Assembly (NCBI GenBank): GCA_001587715.1
Contig: LNGC01000004.1
Span: forward strand, 1-37,003
Reading direction: 5' to 3'
Origin: Candidatus Methanofastidiosum methylothiophilum
Lineage (GTDB): Archaea > Methanobacteriota_B > Thermococci > Methanofastidiosales > Methanofastidiosaceae
DNA length: 37,003 bases
In this document: positions 1 through 37,003 of the stretch, in pieces
Position numbering within the stretch: position 1 is the first letter of the stretch
Layout: the number at the start of each line of letters is the position of its first letter
Position numbers and translations under genes: made by a program
Notes under the pieces: model-generated
What the model saw: only the letters and a program-made list of their open reading frames with translations
Told to the model about the DNA's origin: nothing
The model's database searches: none

Positions 1-70
1 CCAATACCGGGTAAATTGTCGGTTTTGCCGGTATTGATGGCTTACAAATTTGATTTCGTAATACTCCGAC
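1..70. repeat. 70-bp terminal direct repeat, left copy (circular assembly overlap)
   Basis: The first 70 bases are identical to bases 36934-37003. One reading frame passes through the join without a break, so the sequence is a circle of 36,933 bp opened inside a gene. The repeat is best read as assembler overlap, not as a biological terminal repeat. Confidence 0.95.
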
Positions 71-3850: not shown

Positions 3851-4825
3851 TTAGTTGTGAAGTACCGCCACAAACCGGATTAACTTGTTATTGGTCGCAA
3901 CTTTGAGCCAATTGGTAGCGGTCGCCAAATTGGTGTCGGTCGGGTTAACGGTAGATACATTCCACTTTACGAGCTTAAGGTGTAAACCAAAATGTACCGA
4001 GGTCGAAAGAACATTTCGGAAAGCCAAAATGTCCCGGTCTTTTTCGGTCATTAATTGGCGTTGATACCCGACATATCCCGCACCTCGACCAAATAAATAG
4101 GTCGTATAGGTATCATTGTCCGGCGTAGAGTTAACCGGCAAAGCGTCGGATACAATAACCTCTTTACCCATAAAGGTAGGAATACGACCCGTCCGGTAAG
4201 TCTCATCGGTCGACGGCATTTCGACAAAGTCGATTAATTTCGCCTTTAGCAAATCGGCGTAGGTTTTGGAGTGCACAATCAAGCCGGTAAGCTCATCCAT
4301 ATTTTCGCCGATTTTTTGGGCGGCGTCGACACAAACCGAGGTATCAAACAATACCGGGGTACCGGTGTCCGCTTTAACATTGTGAACGTGAGAATCTTTA
4401 AGGGCGCCATTAGTTAGGTCAATCAAAGCCCCGACGATTTTAATAAAGAGCCGGTCGTACTCTTTGCCCCAATAGTTAGCTACTTGGGCGGCAATTTCCG
4501 CTTGAGGGTCGCCCAATCCGGCAAACCGGGCTAAGTCGGTAACTCCCCAAGCCTTTCCACGGTGCAAAACAACTCCAATGTCCTTTAAAGTGCTCAAGGC
4601 GTTAACGGTAATTTGGTTAACCCCGTCAATTACCTCGGAGTCGCCGGTTAATTCATCCCAATAAGGAACATTGAAAAAATTTCCGCCCTCGCTAATGTCC
4701 ACGTTAGCATAGTCAAAAGAGGCGATACCACTACGGATTATTTTTGCCCGGGTAGCAATTTGAGCGGAGACCATATCCGCCAAAACCTCCGGTACGATTA
4801 CGTCCGCTAAATTAGTGTAAGCCAT
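3851..4825 (-). CDS. major capsid protein (HK97 fold)
   Basis: A 324-residue protein starting MAYTNLADVIVPEVLADMVSAQ, with a long extended segment (GGNFFNVPYWDELTGDSEVID), a spine-helix region around GDPQAEIAAQVANYWGKEYDRLF, and a C-terminal GVGYQRQ-type loop (GAGYVGYQRQL). Length and this pattern fit coat proteins of the HK97 fold that start without a protease domain. It follows the scaffold gene, as expected. RBS is GGGGGTG before ATG 4825. It is one of the longest head genes and is followed by a strong terminator. Confidence 0.88.
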   Translation of the reverse strand: MAYTNLADVIVPEVLADMVSAQIATRAKIIRSGIASFDYANVDISEGGNFFNVPYWDELTGDSEVIDGVNQITVNALSTLKDIGVVLHRGKAWGVTDLARFAGLGDPQAEIAAQVANYWGKEYDRLFIKIVGALIDLTNGALKDSHVHNVKADTGTPVLFDTSVCVDAAQKIGENMDELTGLIVHSKTYADLLKAKLIDFVEMPSTDETYRTGRIPTFMGKEVIVSDALPVNSTPDNDTYTTYLFGRGAGYVGYQRQLMTEKDRDILAFRNVLSTSVHFGLHLKLVKWNVSTVNPTDTNLATATNWLKVATNNKLIRFVAVLHN

Positions 4826-11064: not shown

Positions 11065-11247
11065 TTACCGCCCCGGCTTATAGGTTGCCGAAAAAATAAC
11101 GGTTACCCAAATCACAAAAAGAGAAATAGCGGTTAAAAAGATAGGCTCTTTTGTGAGATAGCTAAAAAACGCCCCCAAGCCAAAGAGACCAAAAATAAAA
11201 TAAATTTGTAGACTATAAGACCAAAAAAAGCGTTTAATCTCTTTCAT
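11065..11247 (-). CDS. small two-TM membrane protein
   Basis: A 60-residue protein: short charged start (MKEIKRFF), hydrophobic segments at about 12-30 and 37-54, and a basic end (TYKPGR). ATG 11247 has AAGGGGGTGTAATT. It follows the two lipoproteins and precedes a terminator, so it is the last gene of that block. Size and topology fit a holin-like or superinfection-related membrane peptide, but nothing decides between these. Confidence 0.6.
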   Translation of the reverse strand: MKEIKRFFWSYSLQIYFIFGLFGLGAFFSYLTKEPIFLTAISLFVIWVTVIFSATYKPGR

Positions 11248-21660: not shown

Positions 21661-21867
21661 TTACAGCCCCCTATATCTTAAGTTTTTAGTTTTTTGGCGA
21701 CGCTTTAGGGCGCTATACACTTCGTCGGGTATGTAATACGGTCGTTTTAAATCAACAAAAGGTATATACCCCAATTCTCGCCATAGAATTATAGTTTTTT
21801 CGGTAATATTTAAGAGTCTTGCCATTTCCCTCTGAGTAACTAATTTTTTTGTCCCTATAAATACCAT
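21661..21867 (-). CDS. MerR/excisionase-like HTH protein
   Basis: A 68-residue protein with a winged-helix core: LVTQREMARLLNITEKTIILWRELGYIPFVDLKRPYYIPDEVYSALK (8-55). The HTH-then-wing pattern with Arg/Pro-rich wing is that of MerR-type or excisionase-type proteins. It follows the Cro-like gene and could be the directionality factor for the integrase or a second early regulator. RBS is TAAAGGGGGCGGTCC before ATG 21867. Confidence 0.7.
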   Translation of the reverse strand: MVFIGTKKLVTQREMARLLNITEKTIILWRELGYIPFVDLKRPYYIPDEVYSALKRRQKTKNLRYRGL

Positions 21868-22277: not shown

Positions 22278-22802
22278 ATGCCACTTAAGCAAATTGAAAC
22301 TAAAAAAGTTAAAAAAATGCTCGAGGAAATTCTCAAAAAATCAAACATTGCCGAGGTATCTGAAAAAACCGGTATAACCCGAGCGACGCTTTATAACATT
22401 ATTAACGAGTCTTATGATTTAACCAAAACCGAAATCGCTCGTAACCTTGCCGTTAATTATGATTTTTTTTTAAAGTGGGACAAAAACGGCTCAATAGATT
22501 TTGTGAGCAAGTCCAAAATAATTGACGAAGCACTTCACCAAGACCAACCAAATTTCATCATTCGTGGAGACGACGCTATTACTTACGAATATTTGAAACA
22601 ATTGAATTTACTCAACCCATCAAAATTAAAACGTGTTTTGGAAATTGTCAACAATCCCGTCCAAGTTGATTTTCTTATAGATATTTTTCTTGCACTCGAA
22701 AACTTTCTTGCAAGGGCGGGATTAAAGGAATATGACCGGAGACAAATCGTTTACAAGAACTTATTAACAAAAGATAATGTCAAGCTTAAAAAAAGAGAAT
22801 AA
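22278..22802 (+). CDS. CI-like repressor with N-terminal HTH
   Basis: I use ATG 22278 (174 residues); an in-frame TTG at 22224 and ATG at 22242 would add an unlikely FRFMFKFYPKK stretch. None has a clear SD. Residues 5-60 are an HTH (KKVKKMLEEILKKSNIAEVSEKTGITRATLYNIINESYDLTKTEIARNLAVNY). The rest is helical (QLNLLNPSKLKRVLEIVNNPVQVDFLIDIFLALENFLARAGL). There is no Ser-Lys LexA-type autoprotease, so induction would not be by RecA-stimulated cleavage. It runs into the integrase gene with a 26-bp overlap. Confidence 0.65.
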   Translation: MPLKQIETKKVKKMLEEILKKSNIAEVSEKTGITRATLYNIINESYDLTKTEIARNLAVNYDFFLKWDKNGSIDFVSKSKIIDEALHQDQPNFIIRGDDAITYEYLKQLNLLNPSKLKRVLEIVNNPVQVDFLIDIFLALENFLARAGLKEYDRRQIVYKNLLTKDNVKLKKRE

Positions 22803-23787
22803 ATATTATTATATCTATTACCGGGATAAACACGGTCGACAATTTCACAAAAGCCTCAAAACGTCATCATTGACAGTTGCCCGAAAAATCCAAAAAGAGA
22901 TAGACAACCGCCTCGCCCTCGAGCGATTTAATTTATACAATCCCCTTTACACTCTTGCCCAAGCCAAAGAAACCTATTTGCAAAAAATCGAGGGACGCAA
23001 AGCCCCTCGAACAATAGAAACCGAAATAAGACTCTTAGATAAGCTCATTAAGTATTTTTCCGGCGGTAGCTCCGCCAATATTACAAAGGATGAGGCGGAG
23101 CGATTTATTGCCCAAGTCTTTAGTGATACCTCTCCAACAACCGCTAATATCGCTATCCGGGAACTAAAAGCTATTTATAATTATTTTATTAAGTTTAACA
23201 TCGTTTCCGAAAATCCTTTTGTCGGTATCCCTCTTTATAAGACGATAGAGAAAGAAATACAATATTTCACCTCGGGGGAAATAGAAACTCTCTTGAAATT
23301 ATCGGGTAATTCTTGGTTGAAAAATTGGATATTGTTTGCCCTTGCTACCGGACTTAGACGTAATGAAATAAAAAGCATACACCAAGAAAATATTAATTGG
23401 AAAGATAGTTTATTAACGGTAGCGGTCAAGCGTCAAAAACTCGCTTACGTCGCCCTTAATAAAATAGCCCTCGACGTCCTTAAAGAACAAATTGAGAAAT
23501 ACAAGCAAGATGAGGTTTTTCCCGAGCCGGTTTTCCCGGAAACGGTTAGCAAAAAGTTTAAAAGATTACTCATTAAATCCAATATTAAAAGAAACCTTAC
23601 CTTTCATAATCTCCGCCATACATTCGCCTCGTTTCTTATTCAAGATGGCGTACCAATTGAGGTAATTAAAAAAATGCTTAATCATCAAGATATTAAAACG
23701 ACCCAAATATACGCCCATTTATCGCCCGGAAACCTCGCCTCGGCGTCCTCGGTTATACAAAACATCTTACAAGCCATTAATCCTTAG
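22777..23787 (+). CDS. int: tyrosine integrase
   Basis: A 336-residue recombinase. Domains: N-terminal arm-binding strand-rich segment (KYYYIYYRDKHGRQFHKSLKTSSLTVARKIQKEIDN), a SAM-like core-binding part (about 60-150) and the catalytic domain with R194 (ATGLRRNE), H277-x-x-R280 (HNLRHTF), H303 (LNHQD) and Y312 (TTQIYAHL). It integrates and excises the phage at the tRNA-Arg(CCT) site 2 kb away. It is co-transcribed with the repressor (26-bp overlap), a simple lysogeny operon. Start ATG 22777 is inside the repressor frame. Confidence 0.93.
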   Translation: MSSLKKENKYYYIYYRDKHGRQFHKSLKTSSLTVARKIQKEIDNRLALERFNLYNPLYTLAQAKETYLQKIEGRKAPRTIETEIRLLDKLIKYFSGGSSANITKDEAERFIAQVFSDTSPTTANIAIRELKAIYNYFIKFNIVSENPFVGIPLYKTIEKEIQYFTSGEIETLLKLSGNSWLKNWILFALATGLRRNEIKSIHQENINWKDSLLTVAVKRQKLAYVALNKIALDVLKEQIEKYKQDEVFPEPVFPETVSKKFKRLLIKSNIKRNLTFHNLRHTFASFLIQDGVPIEVIKKMLNHQDIKTTQIYAHLSPGNLASASSVIQNILQAINP

Positions 23788-24253: not shown

Positions 24254-24391
24254 TTACTCGACTATTTTCTCAATTACTTTTCTGTCTTCCCAATTACAGA
24301 ATCCAAGCCACGCCAACGTTTCCCGGATAGTACAGAATCGTTTCATCCATCGGTAGGCGTGATAAAGATTTTTGAATTGTTGTTTGTTCAT
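24254..24391 (-). CDS. small basic helical protein coupled to the ardC remnant
   Basis: A 45-residue gene: AAAGGAGAAGCT, then ATG 24391 overlapping the ardC stop as ATGA, TAA at 24254. Sequence starts MNKQQFKNLYHAYRWMKRF and includes LAWLGFCNWEDRKVIEKI. It is basic and aromatic-rich. Its SD is the canonical AAGGAG type, unlike most genes here, which suggests arrival together with ardC from another source. Function unknown. Confidence 0.6.
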   Translation of the reverse strand: MNKQQFKNLYHAYRWMKRFCTIRETLAWLGFCNWEDRKVIEKIVE

Positions 24392-24800
24392 AGCTTCTCC
24401 TTTTTAATATTGAGAATAAATTCGACGGCTTTTTGAGCTTTGGCGGCGGCATAAACGATTAGCTTTTTATCGTTTTGCAACCGGGACAACCAAGAATTTA
24501 TATAAGACGCTTGATTGTCGATAACCCTATGCTCAATATCACTTTCGGCACACAAGAAAGCGGCGCCCAACTCGGCGACTAATTCCTCTTCAGAATAGTC
24601 GTTATTGCCAAACAATAAGACGGATAATTAACAAGGCTCAATAATATGAGATTGATACCCCGGTAAACCCTTTTACTTACGAGATTTCTCGGGGTATTGT
24701 TAACACCCCGCCACGGCATACGCCACGGGATAACCCCATCTTCTAACTTTTGAATAATTTTTTCAGTTACGATTTGATAAACGTTTTTACTCGTTTTCAT
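24388..24800 (-). pseudogene. ardC-like antirestriction gene, internally deleted and frameshifted
   Basis: The 5' part (ATG 24800, RBS TGGGGCGCAACT) encodes KNVYQIVTEKIIQKLEDGVIPWRMPWRGVNNTPRNLVSKRVYRGINLILLS, the N-terminal ssDNA-binding motif of ArdC/DUF1738 proteins, then runs out in another frame. The 3' part, in a different frame from about 24615, encodes NNDYSEEELVAELGAAFLCAESDIEHRVIDNQASYINSWLSRLQNDKKLIVYAAAKAQKA, the ArdC C-terminus. The middle ~150-200 residues including the metallopeptidase HExxH are missing. ArdC blocks restriction of incoming DNA; this copy should be inactive unless the short N-terminal protein keeps a role. Confidence 0.75.
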
Positions 24801-25620: not shown

Positions 25621-25647
25621 AACGTCAAAAACAATTTTTTTGACGTT
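25621..25647. promoter_or_regulatory. AACGTCAAAAA/TTTTTGACGTT inverted repeat near attP
   Basis: Perfect 11-bp arms with loop CAATT. The TTGACGTTA half recurs in the switch region at 22120-22158, so the same repressor may bind here. It overlaps the first GTTACGA site. Confidence 0.55.
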
Positions 25648-25662
25648 ACGATATTGTTACGA
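25645..25662. promoter_or_regulatory. integrase arm-type sites, left pair
   Basis: GTTACGA at 25645-25651 and 25656-25662, direct repeats 11 bp apart (one helical turn). The same pair occurs on the other side of the tRNA half. Confidence 0.65.
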
Positions 25663-25740
25663 AATAAATCCGGGCAAGTCGAGAAAGTGTTAATTTATTA
25701 AGAAAAATAAAGGGGTTGAGAGTTTGGTATTTGAGCACTT

Positions 25741-25786
25741 TACCGGATTAGGAATCCGGTGCTCTATCCTACTGAGCTACTGGGGC
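25741..25786 (-). other. attP: attP core: 5' half of tRNA-Arg(CCT)
   Basis: The minus strand from 25786 reads a tRNA start: acceptor GCCCCAG, TA, D-arm GCTC...GAGC, then the anticodon arm CCGGA-TTCCTAA-TCCGG (anticodon CCT) and one T. It then diverges; no variable loop, T-arm or acceptor 3' strand follows. The anticodon arm gives ACCGGATT-AGG-AATCCGGT, an 8-bp inverted repeat with a 3-nt centre, fitting a tyrosine-integrase core. It is flanked by paired GTTACGA arm sites and lies 2 kb from int. Confidence 0.8.
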
Positions 25787-25897
25787 TTTTGATTAAAATA
25801 TCTTAAAATGCCTTATTTTATTGGACTTTGAGTATCTAACCCCGAATTTTTGCTTACTGTAAAAAGTTGTCATAAATAGTAAAAACATTACTTTTTT

Positions 25898-25915
25898 GTT
25901 ACGACTATGTTACGG
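25898..25915. promoter_or_regulatory. integrase arm-type sites, right pair
   Basis: GTTACGA (25898-25904) and GTTACGG (25909-25915), again 11 bp apart in the same orientation as the left pair. They overlap the last codons of the adjacent one-TM gene. Confidence 0.65.
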
Positions 25916-26108
25916 TTTTTCGCTCATCTTGAATTTTAGCTATTATAATCTTTTTAATGTCCGACAAATCTTTTTCGATTTGCCTTAAGGACTTCGTCGC
26001 TTCTGAGCCGCTTATCGCCGAGCGAATAATTGCATAAGCAATTAATAAACCAATTATCAAACCGAGTAAAGAAAGTAAAAAAGAGCCAACGGTAGCGGCG
26101 TCGCTCAT
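25905..26108 (-). CDS. one-TM protein with cytosolic helix
   Basis: A 67-residue protein: one long TM segment (VGSFLLSLLGLIIGLLIAYAIIRSAI, about 7-32) followed by a charged helix (SEATKSLRQIEKDLSDIKKIIIAKIQDERK). RBS AAAGGGTGG before ATG 26108. It is the final gene of the leftward late operon, next to attP. Small holin or membrane-anchor role possible; not recognised. Confidence 0.55.
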   Translation of the reverse strand: MSDAATVGSFLLSLLGLIIGLLIAYAIIRSAISGSEATKSLRQIEKDLSDIKKIIIAKIQDERKTVT

Positions 26109-26126: not shown

Positions 26127-27209
26127 TTAATTATTTAGACTCTTAAAAATTTTTATTATGTCCTCAAATTCTATCGTAAGGTCATTTAGCCATAAAAGTT
26201 TTTTCTTTTCGCTTGATAGTAAAAAATAATGATTGCCGTTTATCGCCCGACCATAATACCTTGACGAGTGGGGACAATCTTTCGGCGAGCCACAACGTAT
26301 CATATAAGGAATAGGATTTTCTCCACTTTTAAAAATCGGAAACCAATTGCTCGCCGGAAAATGCCGGTGTCCCATAGCCATAATGTCGACGTCGGGAAAT
26401 TGCTCTTTTAAAAATCTAATATGCTCGTGGTTTGGATTATAAATACTCGACCCCTTATAACTATGAGTAAGTCCAATTTTATATTCAACATCGTTAACTC
26501 TTAAATTTAGTTTTCCTAAACCATCAAAAAAAGTCGTTTTTTCTTTCAATAATTCTTTTATTGGAGAGTATCCGGACAGAGTTTCGTCAAAGGCAATGTC
26601 GTGGTTTCCCCAAGTTGTCGCTAAAAGTTTCCCGGTAGCAACCAACCTCTCGATTAAACTCCGTACGATTTTTAATTGGTCATTGGGCGGGATTTGCGAA
26701 AAAATTGCCTCGGTTGACCGAAACCGTCTAAAATTATCGGCAAGGTCGCCAACCGTTATTATATAGGCGTCTTTGTGCTCAATTATACCGTCGAGAACCT
26801 TGTCTACTTTATCGGGGTCAACGTAATAGCTCCCAAGGTGCCAATCCCCGGAAAAGACTAACATAATCCACTTGGACCGAGTCTTAACCACGGCGCTTTT
26901 TACCGTTTCAATCTTGAGAGCCTCACCATTAACCTCTCGATAGTGTTTAATTAGTTCAAACCATTTTTTATAATTCCATTCGACGCCCTCTCTAAATTTC
27001 TCGGGAAACTCTACTTTGGGCGTGGTATCTACGGTTGACATTATAAAGCCGGACTCTTGGACAAACCTTTTTCTTTTTTTATATTTATAAACTTGAAATC
27101 GTATTGAGTTAGGACTTATCCCTATTTCCTTGGCAATTTCGCCCCACGTTACCCCGTTTTCCTTTTCCTCTATTATTGACTCGATTAAGTCGTCTCTTAG
27201 TTTTTCCAT
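26127..27209 (-). CDS. HTH-calcineurin-like metallophosphoesterase fusion
   Basis: A 360-residue protein. Residues 15-48 form an HTH (ENGVTWGEIAKEIGISPNSIRFQVYKYKKRKRF). The phosphoesterase has all five metal motifs: GDWHLG (D122, H124), GDLADN (D155), GNHD (N202-D204), THSY (H249) and GHRH (H281, H283). The fold matches calcineurin-like/Mre11-SbcD-type phosphoesterases, though the C-terminal part is short. It could be a DNA-directed nuclease or phosphatase. RBS is AAGGGGGTTAAAA before ATG 27209. It overlaps the upstream metallopeptidase gene by 101 bp. Confidence 0.75.
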   Translation of the reverse strand: MEKLRDDLIESIIEEKENGVTWGEIAKEIGISPNSIRFQVYKYKKRKRFVQESGFIMSTVDTTPKVEFPEKFREGVEWNYKKWFELIKHYREVNGEALKIETVKSAVVKTRSKWIMLVFSGDWHLGSYYVDPDKVDKVLDGIIEHKDAYIITVGDLADNFRRFRSTEAIFSQIPPNDQLKIVRSLIERLVATGKLLATTWGNHDIAFDETLSGYSPIKELLKEKTTFFDGLGKLNLRVNDVEYKIGLTHSYKGSSIYNPNHEHIRFLKEQFPDVDIMAMGHRHFPASNWFPIFKSGENPIPYMIRCGSPKDCPHSSRYYGRAINGNHYFLLSSEKKKLLWLNDLTIEFEDIIKIFKSLNN

Positions 27210-36933: not shown

Positions 36934-37003
36934 CCAATACCGGGTAAATTGTCGGTTTTGCCGGTATTGATGGCTTACAAATTTGATTTCGTAATACTCC
37001 GAC
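36934..37003. repeat. 70-bp terminal direct repeat, right copy
   Basis: Identical to bases 1-70, as expected for a circular contig closed by a fixed overlap length. Confidence 0.95.

Follow-up and report, generated by a model that had tools for sequence, protein, structure and literature searches.

A probable phage attachment site built from the 5' half of a bacterial tRNA-Arg(CCT) gene

The window, by which we mean the whole stretch of 37,003 nucleotides analysed here, is a complete circular temperate tailed phage. Its two ends carry an exact direct repeat of 70 bp, which closes the contig into a circle of 36,933 bp and represents the free circular form of the element, and it encodes a terminase, a portal, a major capsid protein, a tape measure protein and a DnaB-like helicase, together with a RecT-like annealing protein, an endolysin and a tyrosine integrase. 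The features on which the argument below depends are as follows.

1..70, identical to 36934-37003: terminal direct repeat of 70 bp that circularizes the contig
21661..21867, minus strand: small HTH_17 protein (PF12728, 23.6 bits against a cut-off of 27)
22777..23787, plus strand: tyrosine integrase of 336 aa (PF00589, 113.7 bits against a cut-off of 27.1; PHROG 1 integrase)
25621..25647, minus strand: terminator-like stem-loop with an 11-bp stem and a T-rich tail
25645..25662, plus strand: putative arm-type pair GTTACGA-4-GTTACGA, spacing 11, GTTACGATATTGTTACGA
25742..25760, minus strand: anticodon arm, a perfect inverted repeat of 8 bp flanking the anticodon
25743..25786, minus strand: tRNA-Arg(CCT) bases 1-43, the 5' half through the anticodon stem (probable attP core)
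25748-25754, minus strand: 7-nt loop TTCCTAA, the predicted overlap region, by analogy with tRNA-targeting integrases and with an IMG/VR provirus
25898..25915, plus strand: putative arm-type pair GTTACGA-4-GTTACGG, spacing 11, GTTACGACTATGTTACGG

The central feature is half of a tRNA gene. Read on the minus strand from 25786 to 25743, the sequence GCCCCAGTAGCTCAGTAGGATAGAGCACCGGATTCCTAATCCGG corresponds to bases 1-43 of tRNA-Arg(CCT), so that the fragment starts at tRNA base 1 and ends within the gene. It is 85-90% similar to real bacterial tRNA-Arg genes, with the highest similarity (up to 90% over 41 nt) to rhizobial tRNA-Arg(CCT), and Infernal scores it as a sub-threshold tRNA (25 bits, E = 0.0047). 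When aligned with bacterial tRNA-Arg genes the similarity ends at the anticodon stem, beyond which there is neither a T arm nor the 3' strand of the acceptor stem, and ARAGORN, applied to the whole window, detects no complete tRNA. A first, sequence-only reading of this DNA had described a 46-nt 5' half at 25741-25786; the half is real and does end after the anticodon stem, while the lower limit of 25741 takes in two further bases, T44 and A45, which can be assigned only with the host gene in hand. Core-type integrase sites are expected to form an inverted repeat whose loop serves as the overlap (PMC8371274), a shape that the anticodon arm fits. We also observe a weaker direct repeat of 21 nt (25724-25744 and 25821-25841, 71% identical), one copy lying on each side of the core, which may be due to chance or may be bound by a further protein, an excisionase for instance.

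On both sides of this core lie paired short repeats. The motif GTTACGA occurs at 25645, 25656 and 25898, and the right pair overlaps the 3' end of the ORF at 25905-26108. The same reading had reported GTTACGA pairs with 11-bp spacing in a common orientation; both pairs indeed have a start-to-start spacing of 11, or one helical turn, and the same orientation on the plus strand, and three of the four copies are exact, the fourth (at 25909) being GTTACGG. Within the 37-kb window this is the sole case of a pair that is repeated 100-350 bp away, and such a pair appeared anywhere in only 1 of 20 shuffled windows. When the four sites are scored together as an array about the half, they match at 27 of 28 positions, against a shuffle maximum of 25, and both by sequence and in comparison with shuffles we find candidate arm-type sites flanking the core.

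The enzyme that would use these sites is encoded by the phage itself, as a tyrosine integrase with a PF00589 domain, in a gene 1.96 kb from the core, a distance greater than at most of the comparison loci described below and one that counts against the reading proposed here. The small HTH_17 protein is a possible excisionase. We also note an ArdC N-terminal domain (PF08401) at 24388-24800 on the minus strand, present as a short 73-aa fragment followed by an ORF in another frame, which from its sequence is probably a broken anti-restriction gene. Given the core, its flanking pairs and the integrase, we consider it very likely that 25645-25915 serves as attP for this temperate tailed phage and that its tyrosine integrase acts inside the anticodon arm of a tRNA-Arg(CCT) gene of bacteria, with the phage supplying the 5' half.

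The attribution to a bacterial host needs comment, because the contig is contained in an archaeal MAG (bin G000) with tRNAs of archaeal type. Across seven congeners the tRNA-Arg(CCT) of this genus hardly varies, a single T-loop base being different, and the phage half is identical to it at just 28 of 44 positions; the MAG genome contains no matching tRNA-Arg(CCT), and the tRNA half is absent from it and from 60 relatives. On these grounds we reject the archaeal MAG as the host and, since the half resembles bacterial tRNA genes and not the tRNA-Arg(CCT) of the MAG genus, the contig most likely represents a phage of bacteria that was misbinned in an archaeal MAG. Two other contigs of this MAG (G000:C19 and G000:C101; L034 and L032) carry bacterial-looking tRNAs with an encoded CCA end, and these may be contamination as well. 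In the genome collections searched we find no host, attB, attL or attR for the window phage, and neither the integrase, the terminase nor the capsid leads to a near relative there. Bacteroidota were considered as hosts; the half is present in 0 of 396 genomes, a count that covers the sampled lineages. In Hydrogenobaculum phage 1, Erythrobacter phage XM05 and Actinomycetia phage DSL-LC01 the sequence that matches the half belongs to a complete tRNA.

A separate observation concerns translation starts. The ribosome-binding motif at the start of most phage genes is unusual, approximately aGGGGG(C/T)GTAA(C/T)TATG (examples lie upstream of 318-737, 1248-1712, 3851-4825, 11065-11247 and 26127-27209), and across the whole window GGGGG stands 3-9 nt before ATG 30 times while the usual GGAGG never does. 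The motif could indicate that the anti-Shine-Dalgarno sequence of the host is altered, or it could be a start signal specific to the phage. Searching for related phages with the start-site motif AGGGGGCGTAACTATG matched 6 contigs, none of them related.

We propose that integration would proceed as follows. Integrase bound to the arm pairs and to the anticodon arm would recombine attP with the host tRNA-Arg(CCT) gene, the phage supplying bases 1-43 and the crossover falling, by our estimate, at about the anticodon loop. The rebuilt tRNA would then consist of the phage half (25786-25743) joined to the host 3' half, with a leader made of phage sequence from 25787 upward. The host promoter, for its part, would read the displaced half into the phage, from 25742 downward on the minus strand, where the stem-loop at 25647-25621 (a stem as long as its 11 bp was matched in 4 of 300 shuffles) could stop transcripts entering from that half.

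The product that this scheme predicts can be seen in an IMG/VR provirus that retains both of its ends. On contig 3300036376_000002 (40,417 bp) a complete tRNA-Arg(CCT) stands close to the left end and, on the same strand, a 5' half close to the right end; an integrase lies 320 bp from this half. Both tRNA copies carry GTGCCCGTAGCTCAGCAGGATAGAGCATCGGATTCCTAA, with zero mismatches through base 38, and they differ from base 39 on, just past the anticodon loop; the leaders that precede base 1 differ as well. In the direction of the tRNA a short flank comes first, then the 5' half, the phage, the complete tRNA and a second short flank, and from this order we take the short contig ends to be host DNA. 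The provirus is the product expected when a phage contributes the 5' half: an intact tRNA with a phage leader, and a host leader on the displaced half. The arrangement proposed earlier for the window phage, with the 5' half replaced and phage DNA upstream of the tRNA, is realised in this other provirus.

The point of crossover is where the main alternative lies. The region could be an attP whose strands cross outside the anticodon arm (in the D arm or the acceptor stem, for example), or one in which only part of the half is needed, and either would give the same 5'-half product with a different joint. The host tRNA is required to fix the limits of identity and to place the two extra bases T44 and A45, which leaves some room for such a joint; yet base 43 is the last of the core, the anticodon arm forms an inverted repeat free of mismatches, and identity in 3300036376_000002 stops at base 38. 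We regard a crossover elsewhere as unlikely.

Less likely again is that the half has nothing to do with integration and is what decay has left of a cargo tRNA gene that was once complete. tRNA-Arg genes are common in phages, and several of the phages found here have complete ones. To compare loci, we scanned IMG/VR for the 5' half of any tRNA-Arg(CCT), which returned at least 120 loci. Among the matches listed, ARAGORN identifies a complete tRNA at 107 sites and none at 14, one of which (L215) is cut by the end of its contig. The other 13 half-only sites all break at the same place as the window half, on the 3' side of the anticodon stem, which argues against decay of a cargo gene. The half-only sites are also associated with integrases: again among the matches listed, a tyrosine integrase ORF lies within 2 kb at 12 of the 13 (within 100 bp at 9 of them), against 23 of the 107 complete sites (Fisher p = 8e-7), and a Pfam integrase domain is found at 11 of those 12, L192 being marginal. 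Against the remnant stand, too, the arm pairs on both sides of the window half and the outcome of a control, in which the same IMG/VR scan for tRNA-Arg(TCT) listed 120 sites, mostly cargo, all complete (0 of 120 half-only). Truncation at the anticodon stem is therefore not the way in which cargo tRNAs decay; as only 4 of the TCT loci have an integrase, the control says nothing about how often TCT serves as an attachment site. With these observations we judge the cargo remnant very improbable, and the first claim of the sequence-only reading, an attP made from the 5' half of tRNA-Arg(CCT), gains 13 IMG/VR loci that repeat its architecture among the matches listed.

The resemblance of some of these loci to the window extends to the arm sites. 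Four-site arrays with a spacing of 11 match at 28 of 28 positions in L161, L165 and L220, at 27 of 28 in L209 and at 26 of 28 in L216, while 15 shuffles of each of the six array cases (these five and the window) give at most 25; at the remaining half-only loci the arm arrays are weaker or missing. Where they can be aligned, the integrases compared share about 25-31% identity (67% for L183 and L209), and since they are mutually diverged across the half-only loci, the arrangement recurs among distant integrases. The layouts vary. The half lies just downstream of the integrase gene in L155, L161, L165, L216 and L220; in L140, L146 and L214 the two are convergent, as in the window; and in L183, L198 and L209 the half lies just upstream of the integrase gene in the same direction, so that the host tRNA promoter could read into that gene after integration.

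How would the rebuilt tRNA be transcribed? The host promoter is retained by most phages known to integrate at tRNA genes. A phage bringing the 5' half must leave transcription of the host tRNA to phage DNA, which makes the tRNA dependent on the state of the prophage. The earlier suggestion, that expression of the tRNA may be under phage control, is in that sense a fair hypothesis, but it draws no support from the sequence: in the 100 nt upstream of the half, a sigma-70 search against shuffled sequence finds no promoter better than chance. With a position matrix that is our own approximation, the window gives p = 0.71, and the median p over the group of half loci is 0.50. We accordingly do not retain the idea that a recognisable sigma-70 promoter replaces that of the host. 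Transcription from a non-canonical promoter, or by read-through from the minus-strand genes above 25905, is possible. Of the 9,099 codons of the phage, 66 are AGG, so it has no obvious special need for tRNA-Arg(CCT). A bolder reading would hold that the 5' side of tRNA-Arg(CCT) is a recurrent and preferred target of takeover by phages, that lysogens read AGG through a tRNA transcribed from the prophage, and that this provides a handle on host translation which switches with integration and excision; we think this rather unlikely. The 13 half-only tRNA-Arg(CCT) viral loci among the matches listed, along with the one two-ended provirus, form a panel on which prophage control of a host tRNA can be tested.

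Attachment through a 5' half is already known, uncommon, and little studied in bacteria, and several described systems share parts of the arrangement. The tRNA-dependent lysogeny of mycobacteriophage Fionnbharth (PMC10865867), in which the host tRNA is broken and a whole phage tRNA replaces it, is a mode that exists in bacteria and has in common with our case a tRNA gene as target and a host that depends on prophage DNA for the tRNA, but it needs a complete phage tRNA of the disrupted isotype and a core of about 10 bp, whereas the window has no complete tRNA by ARAGORN and a 44-nt core long enough to rebuild one, and we discount it almost entirely. In the mycobacteriophages Giles, L5 and CrimD, paired arm-type repeats flank attP, one short pair on each side of the core and in direct orientation in Giles and L5 (PMC3203893), as in the window; typical mycobacteriophage cores, however, include the 3' half of the tRNA (PMC10865867), whereas the window core is the 5' half. 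Host tRNA promoters that read into an integrated element have been described for ICEKp1 (PMC13023037).

The 5' half itself is used by the pTN3-like (suicidal) integrative plasmids of archaea, from Thermococcus nautili (PMC5495485; PMC8371274), where attP copies the tRNA 5' half (a core of 41 bp in pTN3) and the rebuilt tRNA, parted from its original promoter, is expressed from the integrase promoter, an arrangement seldom met in bacteria, in which rebuilt tRNAs nearly always retain the original promoter (PMC8371274). In pTN3 the attP lies inside the integrase gene, which is disrupted on integration, whereas the attP of the window (core 25743-25786) is intergenic and the integrase gene (22777-23787) stays intact; pTN3 is moreover an archaeal plasmid, while the window is a tailed phage whose host is probably bacterial. 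Also comparable are the 5' islands of the Islander survey (PMC4383910), which share a tyrosine integrase, a tRNA target, an element-supplied 5' part and the expectation that a displaced 5' fragment lies ahead of the rebuilt tRNA, with the difference that those islands were mapped as integrated in genomes and the window phage is known as a free form alone. In that survey 159 islands have a 5' tDNA fragment and 3,760 a 3' fragment (3,919 in total), so that the half-only share of 12 of the 35 tRNA-Arg(CCT) sites with an integrase within 2 kb, among the matches listed and with unmatched sampling, stands far above the 4% of Islander and is a lead rather than a rate.
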